A stretch of 64,000 nt of DNA from contig NZ_PVBT01000001.1 in assembly GCF_002980555.1 (NCBI RefSeq), positions 1,116,001-1,180,000 on the forward strand, written 5' to 3'. The position numbers were made by a program, and so were the translations under genes. The notes beneath the pieces are model-generated. The model saw only the letters and a list, made by a program, of their open reading frames with translations. It searched no databases and was not told where the DNA came from. Positions 1 through 11,756 of this stretch are shown here, piece after piece; the first letter of the stretch is position 1; every line of letters begins with the position of its first letter. The stretch comes from Phyllobacterium myrsinacearum. GTDB taxonomy: Bacteria > Pseudomonadota > Alphaproteobacteria > Rhizobiales > Rhizobiaceae.

Positions 1-750
1 GCGCAGTTCGGTCCAATGGGTCTTCGGGCGATAGTGGTGCTCGGCATGGTAGCCGTTGCCGAACCACAACCAGTTGTAGAAGCGGTTATGGCTGCTGACT
101 CCCCAGGCGATGGGTTCTTCCGGATCGCCATTGAGGTGCTCGTAATAGCCGTTGAGCGAGGAGAGGCAGTTCCCCAGATAATAGAAGGGAATGAAGAACA
201 GCATCGCCTTCCAGTCATAGAGGAAGCCGATCGCCGCCAGACCCAGGAATGCGTAGAGTTCGAAACGGCCCCATTTGGCGTCAAACGGGCGGTTCTTGGC
301 AATGGCCTTGTGAATATCGCCGAGACTGTCGCGGAAGAAGCTCAGGAACGTATAGCTCCATACGTTTTCCGGTTCGCCATTCTTGCCATGGCGATAAATC
401 GACAGCCAGTCGATGGTTTCACCCTTTTCGTTCGGGCGGTCGCTGTTGCCCGAGTGATGGCGCATGTGAATCCAATGGTAGTAGGTCTGCGAGAAGCCGA
501 TTGTGATCGATTCGAGCAGGCTGAAGGCGTAGTTCATCGCGCGCGGCTTGAAGTAGGGCGTGTGGATGAAGTTGTGCGAAATGCTGTTGATGTTCCACGA
601 GATCGATACCGCGTAGAACCCGCCGAGGACGAGCGACAGCCATAGAGGCCGGCTCTCGAAACCGGCGATCAGATAGACATTGAAGAGAAGGTGAGCGACG
701 GCTGCCAGAACGGGCGCAATGTCCCACCTTGTATGAGCGAAGAGTTTCAT
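1..750 (-). CDS. Membrane fatty-acid-desaturase-family protein (3' end beyond window)
   Basis: Reading down from the ATG at 750 the frame stays open for 250 codons to the window edge, so the C-terminus is missing. Three histidine boxes typical of membrane di-iron desaturases are present: HNFIH near residue 59, HMRHH near residue 97 and HAEHH near residue 239. Hydrophobic stretches lie between them. The family uses a di-iron centre to introduce double bonds or hydroxyls, usually into acyl chains, although some members (for example RtxC of rhizobitoxine synthesis) act on small amino-acid-like molecules. The ATG overlaps the stop of the upstream SMR transporter gene (ATGA), which suggests translational coupling. 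As the last visible gene of an aminotransferase/ureohydrolase operon, a non-lipid substrate is possible; that is inference. Confidence 0.85.
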   Translation of the reverse strand, partial: MKLFAHTRWDIAPVLAAVAHLLFNVYLIAGFESRPLWLSLVLGGFYAVSISWNINSISHNFIHTPYFKPRAMNYAFSLLESITIGFSQTYYHWIHMRHHSGNSDRPNEKGETIDWLSIYRHGKNGEPENVWSYTFLSFFRDSLGDIHKAIAKNRPFDAKWGRFELYAFLGLAAIGFLYDWKAMLFFIPFYYLGNCLSSLNGYYEHLNGDPEEPIAWGVSSHNRFYNWLWFGNGYHAEHHYRPKTHWTELR

Positions 751-1100
751 AATCCTGTTGCTCCTACACAGGCCACGCCGGCTGTGATGAACAGCACACC
801 GGCTGCGTGGCGAAGGTTGATTTGTTCTTTGAATATCCATGCTCCGGCGAGCACGATGACGACATAACTCAAGGCCATGAGCGGAAAGGCAATCGACAGC
901 GGCACGTGTTCGAGCACGACCGTCCAGCCGATGAGTTCGAGAGCCCAGAAAAAGACGCCGAGCCAGGTCATGGGTTTGACCAGGGCTGCCGACAGGGTTT
1001 CATTGTCGGCGGAATGTTTGAAGCAGACTTCCCGCGCGGTCTCCGTCAGCACGCAGAACGCGATCAGGGCCAGCATGGCAGGGGTGAGGGTGCCGGTCAT
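747..1100 (-). CDS. Small multidrug resistance (SMR/EmrE-like) transporter
   Basis: A 117-residue, almost wholly hydrophobic protein with four predicted transmembrane helices, the usual size for the SMR family. A glutamate in the first helix (LTETAREV, about residue 20) matches the position of the proton/substrate-coupling Glu of EmrE-type antiporters. A longer reading from 1232 is possible, but the ATG at 1100 overlaps the upstream ureohydrolase stop as ATGA and removes a non-membrane arginine-rich leader. SMR proteins export small cations or amphipathic compounds, or act as lipid-carrier flippases. The operon position suggests export of the local product, which is inference. Confidence 0.8.
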   Translation of the reverse strand: MTGTLTPAMLALIAFCVLTETAREVCFKHSADNETLSAALVKPMTWLGVFFWALELIGWTVVLEHVPLSIAFPLMALSYVVIVLAGAWIFKEQINLRHAAGVLFITAGVACVGATGL

Positions 1101-2050
1101 GCCATGGCCTCCGACAGGACTTCCAGCAACGCATGATTGGCGGCGCTGTTGATATTGGTTGTAAGGACCGGATCGGGCGTCGCGTGCGGCTGGTCGATGA
1201 AGATTTCCGCGCGCTTGGTGAAGCGCGTCCACAAATTCCCCGCATAGGACGGCGTTGAATAATCGCCGGTCACGTCGGCGCCGATAATCCGGTGGCGCTT
1301 ACTGATCTCGGTGATCAGCGACAGCACATAGGGCAGGCGCATGCGCCCCTGATCCCAGTTGGTGATGGCATCATCGTGAACCAGCACGTCCTTGTCGATG
1401 GTAAGATACACCGCGTCGGTGGTGATGCGCGACAACAGCTGGTCGATGAAATTGTCTTCACCGATGTCCGAAATCGTCTTCCAGCTCAAGACGCCGTTTT
1501 TCTGCTCATAGCTGGCACCGTTGCCATAGTTCTTGCGCACCCGGCTTGGCGCATGACTGTAGGGGTAGAGTTCGAGCTGTCCCTGCTGCAGCAGGGACAG
1601 GTTGGCACCCTTGCGTTCGGGATTGGCCAGATCGTCGCTGCACACGCCGATTGTCACGATCTTTTCAAGGCCTGGATGCTGCAACGCGCGGTTGATCCAC
1701 GAGCCGCAATGCATGCCATTGCCGAAATGCACCCAATCGGGGTGATTGTCGAAGTGAATGAGCGTTGCCGGGCCCGGATGGTTTTCAAGGGCGTTTGCGA
1801 CGAGAAGGGCGGTGACGTGGTGGAAATCACCCGATCCCATGAAACACAGATGCGGCTTCTTCTGGTCACCGACCATTTGCCGGGAAAGACTTCCGGCAAG
1901 GGCGTCGATTGCCGTCTGGTTGCCCCACAGGCGGACCACCTGGCCGTGGTCTTCCGCGTGAATCTGGCGCGCGCCGGTTCGCATACAGGCGCGCACGAAG
2001 TCGGGTTGCAACTCCAGCGCATCATCAAGGTGAAGAAGGAGGAGTTGCAT
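1097..2050 (-). CDS. Ureohydrolase (arginase/agmatinase/formiminoglutamase superfamily), divergent
   Basis: A 317-residue protein of arginase-family length. The Mn-binding motifs are recognisable though altered: GSGDFHH near residue 92 (family GGDHS), DNHPD near 121 (family DAHxD) and TIDKDV near 218 (family SxDxDxxDP). All metal-ligand His and Asp positions seem to be kept, but the substrate loops differ from arginase or agmatinase, so I would not assign a substrate. The family hydrolyses guanidino, amidino or formimino compounds. Its start lies three bases after the aminotransferase stop and its own stop overlaps the SMR start, which places it inside a tight operon. Confidence 0.8.
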   Translation of the reverse strand: MQLLLLHLDDALELQPDFVRACMRTGARQIHAEDHGQVVRLWGNQTAIDALAGSLSRQMVGDQKKPHLCFMGSGDFHHVTALLVANALENHPGPATLIHFDNHPDWVHFGNGMHCGSWINRALQHPGLEKIVTIGVCSDDLANPERKGANLSLLQQGQLELYPYSHAPSRVRKNYGNGASYEQKNGVLSWKTISDIGEDNFIDQLLSRITTDAVYLTIDKDVLVHDDAITNWDQGRMRLPYVLSLITEISKRHRIIGADVTGDYSTPSYAGNLWTRFTKRAEIFIDQPHATPDPVLTTNINSAANHALLEVLSEAMA

Positions 2051-2054
2051 CCGA

Positions 2055-3476
2055 TTATCTCTTGGCGGCGCGTACGAAAAGCTGATCGAGCAGGTTGAGA
2101 GCCAGATCGATTTCCTCGCGGGTAATCAGCAGGTTTGGTGCCAAGGTGATGACGTTCTTGTAATAGCCGCCAACATCGAGCACGAGACCGTACTTTTTGT
2201 TGCCGACAACAAGATCGCCCTTCATGCCTTCATCGGCCATCCAGTCGAGCGTTGCCTTGTCCGGTGTGAAGCCGTCTTCCTTGCAGATTTCGACACGCAG
2301 GGCGAGGCCGAGGCCGTCCACGTCGCCGATGGTGGGATGACGCTTCTGCAGCTCCTTCAGACCATCAAGGAAATAGGCACCTTTTTCCATGACGGCTGCG
2401 CCGAAGTCTTCTTCTTCGAGCATTTTCATGGTTTCGAGGGCGACGGCGGTACCCATCGGGTTGCTGGCGAAGGTCGAATGGGTCGAGCCGGGCGGGAAAA
2501 TGCCGGGGTTGATCATTTCTTCCTTGGCCCAGACGCCGGACAGCGGGTTGAGGCCGTTGGTGATCGCCTTGCCGAACACGAGTGCGTCGGGTGTCACGCC
2601 GAAATGCTCGATCGACCACAGCTTGCCCGTGCGGTAGACGCCCATCTGGATTTCGTCGACCACGAGCAGAATGCCGTGATCATCGAGGACCTTCTTGAGT
2701 TCCTTGAAGAAGTTCATCGGCGGGATGACATAGCCGCCGGTGCCCTGGATCGGCTCGACATAGAATGCGGCATATTCGGCCTTGCCGGTCTTGGGATCCC
2801 ACACGCCATTATATTCGCTTTCGAACAGGCGGGCGAATTTCTGAACGCAGTAATGACCGTATTCTTCCTTGCTCATGCCCTTGGGGCCGCGGAAGTGATA
2901 GGGGAATTCGATAAACTGGGCGCGGTCGCCGAAATGACCATAGCGGCGGCGGTAGCGATAGCTCGAGGTAATGGCCGAGGCGCCGAGCGTGCGGCCGTGA
3001 TAACCGCCCTCGAACGCGAACATCAGGCTCTTGCCGCCGGTATAGTTGCGAACCAGCTTGAGCGAGTCTTCAACGGCCTGCGAACCGCCGACGTTGAAAT
3101 GGACGCGACCCTTGGCACCGAACTTGCGCTCGGCATCCTTGGCGATCATGGCGGCCAATTCCACCTTTTCGCGATGCAGATACTGCGAGGCAACCTGGGG
3201 AAGCGTGTCCAGCTGGCGATGCGCGGCAGCATTCAGGCGCGCATTGCGGTAACCGAAATTGACCGCCGAATACCACATCTGCAGGTCGAGGAACGGGGTG
3301 TCCTTGGCGTCATAGACGTAGGAGCCTTCGCACCGGTCGAAGAACATCGGATGGTCGGTATAATGAACCGTATCGCCATGCGAGCAATATTCCTGCTCAA
3401 GGGCGCGAAGTTCGGCTTCGGATATCTGCGGGAGGGCAGCATTGTCATTCTGCTCGATGGCAAGGTTGGTTTTCAT
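2055..3476 (-). CDS. Class III PLP-dependent aminotransferase
   Basis: About 473 residues of the ornithine/GABA/diaminobutyrate aminotransferase fold. The PLP-binding Asp is in the DEIQMGVYRTG stretch and the Schiff-base Lys in VFGKAITNG. These enzymes move an omega- or alpha-amino group to a keto acid. The exact substrate cannot be read from the sequence; diaminobutyrate-, GABA- or glycine-like substrates are all plausible. I start at ATG 3476, preceded by an AGAAGAGA stretch; an in-frame ATG at 3497, three bases from the upstream HAD stop, lacks a ribosome site. It sits between the phosphatase and the ureohydrolase in an unbroken minus-strand operon. Confidence 0.88.
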   Translation of the reverse strand: MKTNLAIEQNDNAALPQISEAELRALEQEYCSHGDTVHYTDHPMFFDRCEGSYVYDAKDTPFLDLQMWYSAVNFGYRNARLNAAAHRQLDTLPQVASQYLHREKVELAAMIAKDAERKFGAKGRVHFNVGGSQAVEDSLKLVRNYTGGKSLMFAFEGGYHGRTLGASAITSSYRYRRRYGHFGDRAQFIEFPYHFRGPKGMSKEEYGHYCVQKFARLFESEYNGVWDPKTGKAEYAAFYVEPIQGTGGYVIPPMNFFKELKKVLDDHGILLVVDEIQMGVYRTGKLWSIEHFGVTPDALVFGKAITNGLNPLSGVWAKEEMINPGIFPPGSTHSTFASNPMGTAVALETMKMLEEEDFGAAVMEKGAYFLDGLKELQKRHPTIGDVDGLGLALRVEICKEDGFTPDKATLDWMADEGMKGDLVVGNKKYGLVLDVGGYYKNVITLAPNLLITREEIDLALNLLDQLFVRAAKR

Positions 3477-3499
3477 GAAGATTCTCTTCTGTTGCATTT

Positions 3500-4183
3500 T
3501 TACGCCGTGGCGTAATGGGGAGCGCTCTCGTGATGGCGGTTGAAGCCGGGGAGCGCATTCTTCAGGCTCTGGGTAAGGTCGGAAAAGTTTTCGTAGCTGA
3601 CGAACGGAATGGCCTGCTGCGTGCAGAACTCAGCCAGCTTGTCCTTGGCGAACACCAGTTCCGGCTTGTCGGAGACACAGAAATCGGAACGGCCGTCGCC
3701 GATATAGACCCGCGTATCGAAGGCCTCGACCGAACGGCACTTGCACACGCCGGCGGCCGACGAACAATCGATATCGCTGTAGGGCGAACTGAGTTCATAG
3801 CGGGTGTGGCCATTCACGCCGGAGATCGTCAGCTTGTTGGCGATGACCGGGAGATAGTCGAGGTTGTGCCGGGCAAGGATGCGCTTGATGAAATAATCGA
3901 CACCATCGCTGATGATCGTGACCGGTATGCCCTGTGCCCAGCAGAAATCGATAAAGGCGGGGAAGGTGGGGTCGATGGCGATGTCGTCGAGCGCACCATC
4001 CAGTTCCTGGCGAGTGGCTTCGATCAAGGCAATCTGACGTGCCATGCATTCGGCGGAACCAATGAGGCCCTGCTTCCATTGCTGTTCGATGTCTTCCCAG
4101 GCCGGGCTGGCTAATCGTTCAAGAATGAAATCGGTCGCGTCCTCAAGCGAAATGGTCCCGTCAAAATCACAAAATACATGCAT
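3500..4183 (-). CDS. MtnX-like HAD-IB family phosphatase
   Basis: The start at ATG 4183 is chosen because GAGGAG lies seven bases upstream; a longer frame from 4222 has no such support. The 227-residue protein begins with the HAD nucleophile motif DFDGT, then has motif II (TIISDG near residue 91) and the acidic motif (YIGDGRSD near 162). HAD-IB members include phosphoserine phosphatase and the methionine-salvage phosphatase MtnX. A Cys-rich stretch (VCKCRS) resembles MtnX-like proteins. No other methionine-salvage gene is nearby, so the enzyme more likely dephosphorylates an intermediate of the local operon. It is the first gene of that operon. Confidence 0.85.
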   Translation of the reverse strand: MHVFCDFDGTISLEDATDFILERLASPAWEDIEQQWKQGLIGSAECMARQIALIEATRQELDGALDDIAIDPTFPAFIDFCWAQGIPVTIISDGVDYFIKRILARHNLDYLPVIANKLTISGVNGHTRYELSSPYSDIDCSSAAGVCKCRSVEAFDTRVYIGDGRSDFCVSDKPELVFAKDKLAEFCTQQAIPFVSYENFSDLTQSLKNALPGFNRHHESAPHYATA

Positions 4184-4234
4184 GCAGACACTCCTCGTGC
4201 GAATGTGAGGAGCTTCTAGCATCGATGGATGATC

Positions 4235-4312
4235 GCTAAATTATGCGAAGATGATGCCAAACTGAAATCGATGGAGGGCGATCAGTGCATTCGTGTGCAA
4301 GCGAAATTATGC
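4235..4312. promoter_or_regulatory. Direct repeat GC(T/G)AAATTATGC upstream of the HAD-aminotransferase operon
   Basis: Two 12-base copies at 4235-4246 and 4301-4312 match at 11 of 12 positions and lie 66 bp apart, centre to centre. They flank the only region that could hold a promoter for the five-gene operon. The distal copy includes the stop codon of the histidine kinase. Tandem AT-rich half sites are common for OmpR-family regulators such as the one encoded just upstream. A role as its target is inference. Confidence 0.3.
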
Positions 4313-5683
4313 TTTTGGCAGAAGCACTTCCACAAGGAGGCCGTTGCCGGAGGCCGGGGACTTCAATGCAATCGTGCCCGACAGGCGCTTGACGATATCG
4401 GCAACGATGGTCAAGCCCAGACCGGTTCCTTCGATTTGCGGCGTGTCGACGCGGTAGAATCGCTGGAAGACGGCCTCGCGGTGGTGTTCTGCGATACCCG
4501 GACCGCTGTCTGATATGGACAGGCGCCAGTAATTGTTGGCCACAGTGATCGCCACGCGTATCCGGCCGGAGGCGGGCGTATATTTGACCGCATTTTCGAT
4601 GAGGTTGCTGACCATCAGGCGTAGCAGCGGTTCGTCGGCCCGCACCAGCGCCTTTTCGTCGCCGTCGAGCGACATGTCCAGCTGTTTTGCCGTTATCAGA
4701 TTGCCCATTTCGGCAACGACGGATGCCACGGTGCTGTAAAGCGGCACGGCCTGCAGTTGCATGGGCTGATGCCCGACGCGCGCGGCGCGCAGCAACTGCT
4801 CAATGAGATAGGTGGCCCGTTCATTGCTGATGATGAGGTCGGCGATGATGGCCTGCCGCTCCTTCTCATTGTCCGCCTGGGCCAGCATCTGCAGCAGAAG
4901 CTTCAATGCGGCCTGCGGCGTGCGCAACTGATGGGCGGCATGATCGGCAAAGCGCCGTTCCGCCTTGAGCGAGTCGTCGAGATCCTCGAGCAACTGGTTG
5001 ATCGAGCGGCCGAGGGGCGAGAGGTCCCGCGGCAGCGTGTCGACGGGAATGGCCGAGAGATCGTCCGGAGAGCGGCTGCGGATCTGCTGCACCAGCATGC
5101 GGATGGTGCCAAGGCCGCTGTTGATGCCGAACCATATCAGCAGCGCGATCAGCGGGATGACGATCAGCAGCGGGAAGATTAGGTTGAGCAGGATGTTCGA
5201 CACCAGCGTCTGGCGCATGGCGACCTTTTCCGCCACTTCGATCACAACACGCGTTTCGGGGATCGGCAGGGAGTAAATGCGCCAGAGTTCGCTGTCATAG
5301 GGGACATTGGTGAACCCGGCGCGCTGCAGCGGGATTTCTGCCGGAAACGTCGATCCGGAGAAAAGCACGATCTTGTTGTCTTTCCACGCCCGGAACATGT
5401 GGGCGTCCGCGTAGTCGTCCGCATCTTCATTCAGCGCCAGCTGGTTGCCCATGCTCAAATCGATATCGGCGATGTGCTTGGGCGGCGCGTCTCCCGTTTC
5501 CTCAAACTGATTGTGAAGAAGCATCCACAACACATTCGCATCGTTGATTAATTGCGCATCATAAACATTGTTGATTTCACGCGTGGCGCTGTTGAAGGCA
5601 AAGCCGCCAATGATTGCCATGGTGATGAGGATGGTTGGCGTGACGCGAAAGAACAGATTGCGGGTAAGGGTGGCTCTGCTCAT
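4307..5683 (-). CDS. QseC/PmrB-like sensor histidine kinase
   Basis: 458 residues. A first membrane helix (about 9-30), a periplasmic domain of about 130 residues and a second helix (about 163-187) lead into the kinase core. His251 in HQLRTP is the phosphorylation site; N box (NLIENAVKY), G1 (DSGPGI), F box (FQRFYR) and G2 (GTGLGL) are all present. The short periplasmic domain resembles the QseC/TctE group, whose ligands are diverse. Its ATG overlaps the response-regulator stop (ATGA), so the pair is co-translated. The kinase ends 124 bases before the biosynthetic operon on the same strand, and it probably controls that operon, though no direct evidence exists in the sequence. Confidence 0.92.
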   Translation of the reverse strand: MSRATLTRNLFFRVTPTILITMAIIGGFAFNSATREINNVYDAQLINDANVLWMLLHNQFEETGDAPPKHIADIDLSMGNQLALNEDADDYADAHMFRAWKDNKIVLFSGSTFPAEIPLQRAGFTNVPYDSELWRIYSLPIPETRVVIEVAEKVAMRQTLVSNILLNLIFPLLIVIPLIALLIWFGINSGLGTIRMLVQQIRSRSPDDLSAIPVDTLPRDLSPLGRSINQLLEDLDDSLKAERRFADHAAHQLRTPQAALKLLLQMLAQADNEKERQAIIADLIISNERATYLIEQLLRAARVGHQPMQLQAVPLYSTVASVVAEMGNLITAKQLDMSLDGDEKALVRADEPLLRLMVSNLIENAVKYTPASGRIRVAITVANNYWRLSISDSGPGIAEHHREAVFQRFYRVDTPQIEGTGLGLTIVADIVKRLSGTIALKSPASGNGLLVEVLLPKA

Positions 5684-6336
5684 GCGTCCACCATGTAACC
5701 CACACCCCGGATGGATTTGATGAAATCGCTGCCAAGCTTCTTGCGCAGATTGTAGATCGTCACTTCGGTTGTGTTGCTCTCAACGGCACTCTCGGCGCTG
5801 TACAGCGCATATTCAATATCGCTTTTTGTGACGTATTTGCCGGCGCGTTCCATCAGAAGTTTCAACAGCTGAAATTCCTTGGCCGTCATCATCACCTGGT
5901 TTGACGCCTTGCGCACGACCTTGGCCGCCGGATCGACTTCGACATCGGCGCATTTCAGGATCGTATCGACACGGCCCTCGCTGCGGCGAACCAGGGCGCG
6001 CAGGCGGGCAAGCAGTTCATCAAGATCAAACGGCTTCACCAGATAGTCATCCGCGCCGCTGTCGAGACCTTCCACCTTGTGCAGCGGGGTATCGCGGGCG
6101 GTCAAAAGCAGAATGGGGACAAGATTTTTGTCGCGCCGGGTTGCCCTGAGCACCTCAAGTCCGCTCATCTTGGGCAGATTGACGTCAAGAACAACAACCG
6201 CGAAACTCGAATCCTGCATGGCGGCAAGCCCGGTTTCCCCGTCCTGCATCCAGTCGACACCATAGGCATGTTTTTCCAGCGCCTTCTTCAGAGAGGAGCC
6301 AAGCATGGTGTCATCTTCAATAAGCAGCAATCGCAT
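5680..6336 (-). CDS. OmpR-family response regulator (QseB/PmrA-like)
   Basis: A 218-residue regulator with a receiver domain (EDD at 7-9, phospho-acceptor Asp51 in VVLDVNLP, Lys in VKPFD near 101) and a C-terminal winged helix ending KSIRGVGYMVDA, typical of the OmpR/PhoB group. It heads the minus-strand two-component operon and is divergent from the secreted-protein gene at 6632, so the roughly 295-base gap between them probably carries both promoters. Likely targets are its own operon, the divergent gene and the metabolic operon downstream. Confidence 0.93.
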   Translation of the reverse strand: MRLLLIEDDTMLGSSLKKALEKHAYGVDWMQDGETGLAAMQDSSFAVVVLDVNLPKMSGLEVLRATRRDKNLVPILLLTARDTPLHKVEGLDSGADDYLVKPFDLDELLARLRALVRRSEGRVDTILKCADVEVDPAAKVVRKASNQVMMTAKEFQLLKLLMERAGKYVTKSDIEYALYSAESAVESNTTEVTIYNLRKKLGSDFIKSIRGVGYMVDA

Positions 6337-10365: not shown

Positions 10366-10502
10366 CCTCGCTTCCCCATGGCATTGTGCTTCAGGAGCGG
10401 CACTGAAACCGTTTCCATTTCATTTTGGCTTCAGGTTCGCGTAATCCTGTGATCATCGGCACGTGTTACGAGCCGGAAATCGTTCGACTCAGGAGTGTCT
10501 GA

Positions 10503-11756
10503 ATGCCTCTTTCGCCCGTGGACCGGATTCTTCGTTTCGCCTTCTCCCGCATCGTCACCCGCGGTTCCCTCACAATCCTTACGGCAAGCGGAGCCCGCCT
10601 GATTTTTGGCGACGGCAGCGGCGAACCGGTGGTGGTGCGCTTCACCGACAAGCGCGCCCAGTGGGCCTTTCTCATGGACGCCGATATGCAGCTTGGCGAA
10701 TTGTTCATGGATGAGCGTTTCATCGTCGAGCAGGGGACGATCTATGATTTCCTCTGCCTGGTCCTGCGCGAGGCGCAAAACGAAACGCATCCGCTGCCAA
10801 CGCGTGTGATCGATGCCCTGCGCGCCCGATTTCGGGGATTCCGCCATCGCAATCTGCCGGCGCGGTCAAAGCGCAATGTCGCCCATCATTATGATCTGGA
10901 CGGCCGGTTGTATGGTCTGTTTCTGGATGCCGACCGCCAGTATTCCTGTGCCTATTTCGAACATCCGGAGCAAAGCCTGGAAGATGCGCAGCTGGCCAAG
11001 AAGCGGCATCTGGCCGCCAAGCTTCTGCTGCGGCCCGACAGCCGGGTCCTTGATATCGGCTGCGGCTGGGGCGGTCTGGCACTGCATCTGGCCGCTGAAG
11101 CCCCCTCGGGCAACGTGCTGGGCGTTACCCTCTCGGAGGAACAGCTTGAATTTGCCAGAAACCGGCCGGGAACAAAGAGCCAGCCCGATCGGGTGAATTT
11201 CGCATTGCAGGATTACCGCAGCCTGGGCGGCACATTCGACCGGATTGTGTCGGTGGGCATGTTCGAACATGTCGGCGTCGCATCCTATGGCCAGTTTTTC
11301 CGCAAATGCGCAGAGCTTCTGGACGAGAACGGCGTCATGGTGCTGCACACGATCGGCTGTTCGGCGGTGCCGGGATTCACCACGCCGTGGCTCGACAAGT
11401 ATATTTTCCCCGGCGGCTACATACCGTCCATGTCCGAAATATTGCCGGAAATCGAAAAAGCCGGATTGATGGTCACGGACATAGAAATTCTGCGCCTGCA
11501 CTATGCATCGACATTGGCCGCCTGGCGCGAACGGTTCATGGCCCATTGGCAGGATGCCGCGCAGCTCTATGATGAGCGCTTCTGCCGGATGTGGGAATTC
11601 TATCTGGCTGCGGCGGAGTCCGCCTTCCGCTATGAGGATCTGGTGATTTTCCAGTTCCAGCTGGCAAAGCGCAACGATGTTGTCCCGCTGACGCGCAATT
11701 ACATTCGCGAGCATGAGCAAAGCCGAGCCAAAGTTCTGCAGGCCGCCAATGCCTGA
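10503..11756 (+). CDS. cfa: Cyclopropane-fatty-acyl-phospholipid synthase
   Basis: 417 residues, the usual length for bacterial Cfa. The SAM-binding motif LDIGCGWGGLALHLA is near residue 185, the catalytic-core segment SVGMFEHVG follows, and the YIFPGGYIPS loop is conserved. The enzyme adds a methylene from S-adenosylmethionine across cis double bonds of membrane phospholipids, a stress-hardening modification. AGGAG lies seven bases before the ATG. It follows an ECF sigma/anti-sigma pair by 137 bases and may be one of its targets, though I found no convincing ECF promoter sequence. Confidence 0.92.
   Translation: MPLSPVDRILRFAFSRIVTRGSLTILTASGARLIFGDGSGEPVVVRFTDKRAQWAFLMDADMQLGELFMDERFIVEQGTIYDFLCLVLREAQNETHPLPTRVIDALRARFRGFRHRNLPARSKRNVAHHYDLDGRLYGLFLDADRQYSCAYFEHPEQSLEDAQLAKKRHLAAKLLLRPDSRVLDIGCGWGGLALHLAAEAPSGNVLGVTLSEEQLEFARNRPGTKSQPDRVNFALQDYRSLGGTFDRIVSVGMFEHVGVASYGQFFRKCAELLDENGVMVLHTIGCSAVPGFTTPWLDKYIFPGGYIPSMSEILPEIEKAGLMVTDIEILRLHYASTLAAWRERFMAHWQDAAQLYDERFCRMWEFYLAAAESAFRYEDLVIFQFQLAKRNDVVPLTRNYIREHEQSRAKVLQAANA

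Follow-up and report, generated by a model that had tools for sequence, protein, structure and literature searches.

The 64,000-nucleotide stretch of Phyllobacterium myrsinacearum DNA analyzed here (the window; contig NZ_PVBT01000001.1, positions 1,116,001 to 1,180,000, part of contig C1 of genome G000) carries at its left end an eight-gene operon that represents a conserved gene set, spread patchily across Pseudomonadota. We favor reading this operon, at a probability of about 0.45, as a stress-regulated pathway that would make a cationic aminolipid of the cell envelope and flip it across the membrane. Its chemistry is inferred from the gene set, a repeat box in the promoter, and modeled protein folds.

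An eight-gene operon conserved as a set

Operon genes run in the order HAD, AT3, ARG, SMR1, DES, ABH, GNAT, and SMR2 (Table 1), extending past base 1 of the window. An initial annotation had described five minus-strand genes with ATGA or near-zero spacing, and all five lie where it placed them and belong, by Pfam, to the families it named. The measured gaps are 2 bases between HAD and AT3 (23 if AT3 begins at its second ATG) and 4 bases between AT3 and ARG, with ATGA overlaps of 4 bases each at ARG/SMR1 and SMR1/DES. Following its suggestion to look beyond base 1, we read 15 kb leftward of the window (stretch L002, whose coordinates are those of the window plus 15000) and found three more co-directional genes, ABH, GNAT, and SMR2. 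DES and ABH overlap by 14 bases and GNAT and SMR2 by 4. The five-gene limit therefore proved too narrow: there are eight genes, a co-directional sensor kinase and response regulator pair (HK and RR) directly upstream of HAD, and probably a remote cyclopropane synthase gene (CFA) in the same regulon.

All eight genes were found by tblastn, in identical order, in nine other loci of Phyllobacterium and Rhizobium (L003-L009, L011, L012), so the arrangement is not due to chance. This bears out the proposal of one conserved operon combining an aminotransferase-type pyridoxal phosphate (PLP) enzyme, a phosphatase, and membrane transport proteins. ARG is 89-94% identical in the closest Phyllobacterium loci, and AT3 identity ranges from 72% on a Bartonella plasmid and 75% on a Xanthomonas plasmid up to 98.5% in Phyllobacterium.

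At E 1e-130 or better, AT3 was present in 25 of 398 Pseudomonadota genomes (13 of 213 genera); a sample of the family held it in 6 of 199 genomes. ARG was found at E 1e-8 in 16 of the 398, all inside the 25 AT3 genomes, and shared a contig with AT3 in 15 of these 16 (in G237 the contigs are separate). Hypergeometric values for this co-occurrence, which ignore kinship, were 1.5e-22 for genomes and 3.4e-13 for genera. Among 72,556 plasmid records, AT3 occurred in 34 at E 1e-60 (the best 30 of the 34 were considered, five of them in detail). DES occurred in 19 at E 1e-5, every one 1304-1323 bases from AT3, and at E 1e-10 in 2 of the 199 family genomes, both with AT3. In the family-genome and plasmid collections, this DES subfamily was met solely beside AT3. 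In phage records, a search at E 1e-40 or better returned 7 class III enzymes, with 28-30% identity. The initial annotation would have been undone by genes lying scattered in relatives. Instead, at the limits used, no ARG occurred without AT3 in the 398 genomes and no DES without AT3 in the plasmid records. Its view of the product pathway as undescribed also stands for now, as no characterized counterpart of the gene set turned up in the open-access literature, a scope that leaves out most subscription papers and is hence weak evidence of absence.

Gene content was compared across 43 loci, 42 of them distinct (L004 and L070 represent one contig, with identical CFA). Many of these loci are closely related to the window, whose ARG was used to retrieve L003-L010 and whose AT3 retrieved L011-L015. 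Contigs end within or near the cluster in L047, L055, L063, L068, and L069, and the L054 stretch is cut inside ABH; the 20-kb stretches missed GNAT and ARG of L052 (recovered in L075) and ARG of L049 (recovered in L076). AT3 was present in all 43 loci, ABH in 38, HAD in 37, GNAT and ARG in 32 each, SMR genes in 30, HK in 28, and RR in 25. Less frequent were DES and MipA (12 each), CFA and DegT (11 each), KS and HlyD (7 each), and TolC (5). The minimal common set is HAD-AT3-ABH (L062-L065, L067-L069). GNAT and ARG occurred together in 31 loci, neither in 10, and a single one in two: L047, at a contig start, and L049, where a GNAT-ARG-SMR-SMR group lies on another contig of the genome. Of the 33 loci with GNAT or ARG, 29 have SMR genes; among the loci without either, only L058 does. 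CFA was found in 11 of the 12 DES loci (window included; 10 of 11 minus the duplicate) versus 1 of the 31 others (Fisher p 2.4e-8, confounded by kinship). It was missing from all four rhizobial loci without DES (L013, L046, L047, L071; the L047 contig is cut short). KS with ACP and DES with CFA look like interchangeable acyl modules. MipA/OmpV-family genes adjoin the operon in L006-L009, L011, L012, L046, L048-L051, and L071.

Table 1. Features of the operon, its upstream pair, and the remote synthase gene (positions are those of the window unless L002 is given)
Feature	Position	Strand	Basis and remarks
RR, response regulator, OmpR family	5680..6336	minus	Pfam; NCBIfam PmrA then QseB, both below cut-off
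HK, sensor histidine kinase (2CSK_N, HisKA, HATPase_c)	4307..5683	minus	Pfam; 4-base overlap with RR gene
Putative response-regulator box, four half-sites	4230..4267	minus	46 bases to ATG at 4183
HAD-IB phosphatase, MtnX-like (HAD/Put_Phosphatase)	3500..4183	minus	Pfam, NCBIfam; DxD motif, conserved C...CKC
AT3, class III PLP enzyme (Aminotran_3)	2055..3497	minus	Pfam, alignment
ARG, ureohydrolase (Arginase)	1097..2050	minus	Pfam, alignment, modeled fold
SMR1, EamA/SMR membrane protein	747..1100	minus	Pfam EamA 24.9 bits, under cut-off 28.2; NCBIfam ArnE below cut-off
DES, membrane desaturase (FA_desaturase, PF00487), 5' part in window	1..750	minus	Gene continues past base 1; end at L002 14875
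ABH, alpha/beta hydrolase	L002 14070-14888	minus	Beyond window; Pfam
"GNAT", Fem/MprF-fold transferase	L002 12911-14125	minus	Beyond window; Pfam, modeled fold
SMR2, EamA/SMR protein 2	L002 12498-12914	minus	Beyond window; NCBIfam ArnF below cut-off
Box, second copy	10418..10455	plus	47 bases to CFA ATG
CFA, cyclopropane-fatty-acyl-phospholipid synthase	10503..11756	plus	Groups with last operon gene of Rhizobium

A repeat box ahead of the operon and a cyclopropane synthase gene

The operon is preceded by four NNTCA-type half-sites with an 11-bp period, the third of which reads NNTAA in the window. A scan of the window and 45 loci placed this box before HAD in all 12 loci with RR, HK, and HAD in line (11 distinct; L002 is the window's own). 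A second copy precedes the cyclopropane synthase gene in the window, L003, L004, L005, and L070. The pattern was derived from HAD promoters alone, and the CFA promoter was not used in building it. With up to 2 mismatches, the 64-kb window contained 2 matches, compared with 0.04 expected. Distances from box to ATG are 46 and 47 bases in the operon and CFA promoters, respectively, and AGGAGTGTCTG is common to both ahead of the ATG. An equal box-to-ATG distance in L011 backs the HAD start at 4183.

In three Phyllobacterium relatives, as in the window, CFA lies 6 kb away from the operon on the opposite strand. In Rhizobium (L006-L009, L012) and P. zundukense (L011), this synthase gene closes the operon. 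Identity between the window CFA and these operonic synthases is 68-72%; the genome's closest other CFA paralogue reaches 51.5%. Because the four-fold box recurs in the window only before CFA, which is operonic in Rhizobium, CFA probably belongs to the regulon of the operon. Neither the box nor a CFA of this type was found in G456, a congeneric genome that lacks AT3, and no CFA of this type was found in G577, where AT3 and the box are present and DES is missing.

Genome-wide scans allowing one mismatch returned 4 matches in G000 (exact before the operon and CFA, one mismatch on C3 and C6), 3 in G538 (all exact), 2 in G577 (exact before HAD, one mismatch on C34 in L089), and none in G456; the reversed pattern gave none. 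The next same-strand open reading frames with Pfam matches at C3 and C6 are MarR-like and VanZ-like, with no evident tie to the pathway, and the third match in G538 precedes a LysR-type gene. Two of the four matches in G000 and one of the three in G538 are therefore inconsistent with the regulon. The surroundings of the two one-mismatch boxes of G000 (L086 3723-3760 and L087 3435-3472) look alike by eye, perhaps as a repeated intergenic element.

The predicted box would be the binding site of the upstream regulator. The top NCBIfam match of RR was PmrA at 209.2 bits, under the cut-off of 330 (among the best 25 of 92 matches), which leaves RR PmrA-like rather than a PmrA. By comparison with aminoarabinose addition, such a regulator would turn the pathway on under envelope stress.

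Predicted enzymes and the steps they would catalyze

AT3 is a PF00202 protein (255.4 bits) whose PLP Lys and Asp are invariant among aligned homologues. Thr replaces both Glu211 and Arg398 of the E. coli GABA-AT in 41 of 41 homologues, and equivalents of Arg141 and Lys268 are retained. The idea that AT3 is unique in lacking the carboxylate Arg was weakened by a control of 13 other class III proteins in the genome, of which 3 have Arg at the Arg398 position, 8 have a different residue there, and 2 show a gap. Only AT3, of the 14, combines a kept Arg141 equivalent with Thr at both other sites. AT3 and HAD would together convert a phosphorylated precursor into a small amine or amino-alcohol, and the phosphorylated intermediate proposed earlier for this operon is a fair inference. 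Serinol could still be the amine of the lipid.

ABH, with DES and CFA or, in other lineages, KS and ACP, may supply or tailor an acyl chain. The three His boxes previously reported for the desaturase were confirmed as HNFIH, HMRHH, and HAEHH and are kept in 12 of 12 aligned homologues (L004 and L070 again being one contig). That DES is optional and goes with the cyclopropane synthase points to an acyl chain. At the ABH nucleophile position (aligned residue 94), 16 of 38 homologues carry Cys, which would be appropriate for an acyltransferase, and 22 carry Ser. ABH of L065 gave a weak OlsI match (E 2e-4), and an NCBIfam search found no OlsI match for the ABH of the window's operon.

GNAT (404 aa) matches only FemAB_like and Acetyltransf_6 in Pfam. 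Its model, built on the 95% identical L005 orthologue, has the tandem-GNAT fold of Fem proteins, and the closest folds include the peptide synthases Sbb17 and Sba18, solved with streptothrisamine. No conserved acetyl-CoA motif was found in the alignment, an absence at most suggestive of aminoacyl-tRNA use. The modeled arginase fold and binuclear metal ligands of ARG place it in the ureohydrolase superfamily, which includes peptide arginases of ribosomally synthesized and post-translationally modified peptides. It corresponds to no known arginase or agmatinase equivalog: there were just two NCBIfam matches, both to agmatinase, at 30.5 bits (cut-off 174.3) and 28.6 bits (cut-off 302). Sequence searches of the PDB with ARG, GNAT, and DES returned no close relative.

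To our knowledge, ornithine has no tRNA of its own, and no tRNA charged with it exists. Delivery of Arg followed by hydrolysis is therefore the simplest reason for a Fem-like transferase and an arginase-fold enzyme to travel together. GNAT would add an amino acid to the lipid amine, most simply Arg from Arg-tRNA, and ARG would hydrolyze the guanidino group of the arginyl residue to leave ornithine and urea. We put forward this tRNA-dependent ornithinylation as a tentative and on balance doubtful scheme. A guanidine-derived product, as first suggested, is not what such chemistry would give, since an arginase-type enzyme would take away a guanidino group and not create one.

SMR1 and SMR2 are unequal EamA/SMR proteins whose best NCBIfam matches, both below cut-off, were ArnE (49.8 bits; cut-off 92) and ArnF (51.4 bits; cut-off 99). 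ArnE and ArnF form the halves of a lipid flippase. In place of the lone SMR exporter of small molecules originally envisaged, the pair may flip the lipid across the inner membrane.

By analogy, the operon would work like PmrA-controlled aminoarabinose addition and formation of lysyl-phosphatidylglycerol by MprF, although family criteria make it a member of neither. It shares with the PmrAB-controlled Arn pathway a regulator nearest PmrA, a pair nearest ArnE/ArnF, and a PLP aminotransferase. However, ArnA, ArnC, ArnD, and ArnT were not matched among the eight operon genes in Pfam and NCBIfam (for AT3, among the best 25 of 69 matches), and the DegT-family gene occurs in only 11 of the 43 loci, the window's not among them. 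MprF/LpiA synthases unite transferase and integral-membrane flippase in one protein, whereas the operon encodes its transferase and EamA pair separately, along with a ureohydrolase, a PLP enzyme, and a phosphatase. Unlike FemA/FemX and Sbb17/Sba18, GNAT is partnered by a flippase-like pair and an enzyme with an arginase fold. ARG has the fold and metal-ligand pattern of arginases and agmatinases but is set apart by the missing equivalog match and by its confinement, at E 1e-8, to AT3 genomes among the 398. Ornithine-lipid biosynthesis likewise yields an amino-acid lipid; its acyltransferases OlsB, OlsA, and OlsI were not matched among the operon proteins (Pfam, NCBIfam).

Weighing the aminolipid reading against alternatives

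Several observations weigh against an aminolipid pathway as drawn above. AT3 occurs without GNAT and ARG in 10 of the 43 loci (in L052, both lie just outside the stretch), and 9 of the 25 AT3 genomes lack ARG at E 1e-8, so the tRNA-transfer and ARG steps form a module rather than the core. L015 (a Bartonella plasmid), L072, and L073 carry AT3-GNAT-ARG alone, without HAD, ABH, or SMR; there the trio adjoins MBOAT and AlgX-like genes, modules thus combining in other ways. Confidence in the ARG and GNAT models is intermediate (pLDDT 73.4 and 72.4), and a Fem fold does not prove that GNAT depends on tRNA. Every family match to Arn or Pmr proteins falls below cut-off, and loss of the Arg398 equivalent is common among the genome's other class III enzymes. 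Regulators vary between lineages, the neighboring response regulator in L050 being a sigma-54 activator. Finally, HlyD/ABC/TolC genes in several lineages would suit a secreted product too.

Such a product could be a signal, toxin, metallophore, or antibiotic, maybe acylated or dipeptide-like, assembled from an AT3-derived amine and an amino acid brought by tRNA; its export would fall to the EamA pair or, in other lineages, to HlyD/ABC/TolC. This explanation draws support from the patchy distribution and plasmid copies of AT3, from genes of HlyD or TolC type close to several loci and KS and ACP at others, and from the presence of Sbb17/Sba18 among the closest GNAT folds. We nonetheless consider it rather unlikely, given that the box also stands ahead of a cyclopropane synthase, a membrane-lipid enzyme, that the EamA pair and the regulator are nearest ArnE/ArnF and PmrA, and that MipA/OmpV genes accompany 12 of the 43 loci. 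Alternatively, the operon may make an aminolipid with GNAT delivering another amino acid (lysine or alanine) or an acyl group and ARG acting on an unrelated intermediate of guanidino, amidino, or formimino type. Fem/MprF members use several different amino acids, sequence cannot reveal a substrate, and ARG is distant from characterized ureohydrolases. The coupling of GNAT and ARG (31 of the 33 loci with either) has its simplest explanation if one enzyme uses what the other makes, and we judge this variant decidedly unlikely.

The initial annotation drew a parallel with rhizobitoxine synthesis, in which serinol would be formed from dihydroxyacetone phosphate, followed by a desaturated amino-acid toxin. 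As in the rtx operon, a PLP aminotransferase, a desaturase, and a transporter are gathered in a single operon, here together with a phosphatase. The N-terminal domain of RtxA converts dihydroxyacetone phosphate to serinol phosphate, as described in PMC3222319. However, Pfam found no match to the C-terminal, O-acetylhomoserine-sulfhydrylase-like part of RtxA among the eight operon proteins. Lacking an RtxA-type bifunctional enzyme, and with DES optional (12 of 43 loci) and paired with cyclopropane synthase, the operon is very improbably a pathway of this kind, and we rejected the parallel. Catabolism of polyamines, guanidines, or amino alcohols is similarly hard to credit. Members of the aminotransferase and ureohydrolase families often serve in catabolism, but dehydrogenase and solute-uptake families were not found by Pfam among the eight proteins, and the desaturase, Fem-like transferase, flippase-like pair, and probably co-regulated cyclopropane synthase do not fit.

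Should the ornithinylation scheme hold, the operon would attach a non-proteinogenic amino acid to a lipid of the envelope, controlled by a PmrA-like switch and equipped with a dedicated flippase and cyclopropane tailoring. If the operon does make a cationic aminolipid, it would add an undescribed envelope-modification pathway, in plant-associated and other Pseudomonadota, to lysyl-phosphatidylglycerol, ornithine lipids, and aminoarabinose. This pathway would be plasmid-borne or patchily inherited, and the pairing of arginase and Fem-like enzymes in it would open a new route to ornithyl groups. Even with a different product, the box-defined regulon and gene modules permit direct genetic and lipidomic testing.

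In L066 (9411-16696), a divergent AT3 (54% identity) lies beside a sulfotransferase gene, with a defense-like SIR2-NACHT protein and a phage-type integrase encoded nearby; the remaining gene set was not found in the 20-kb stretch.

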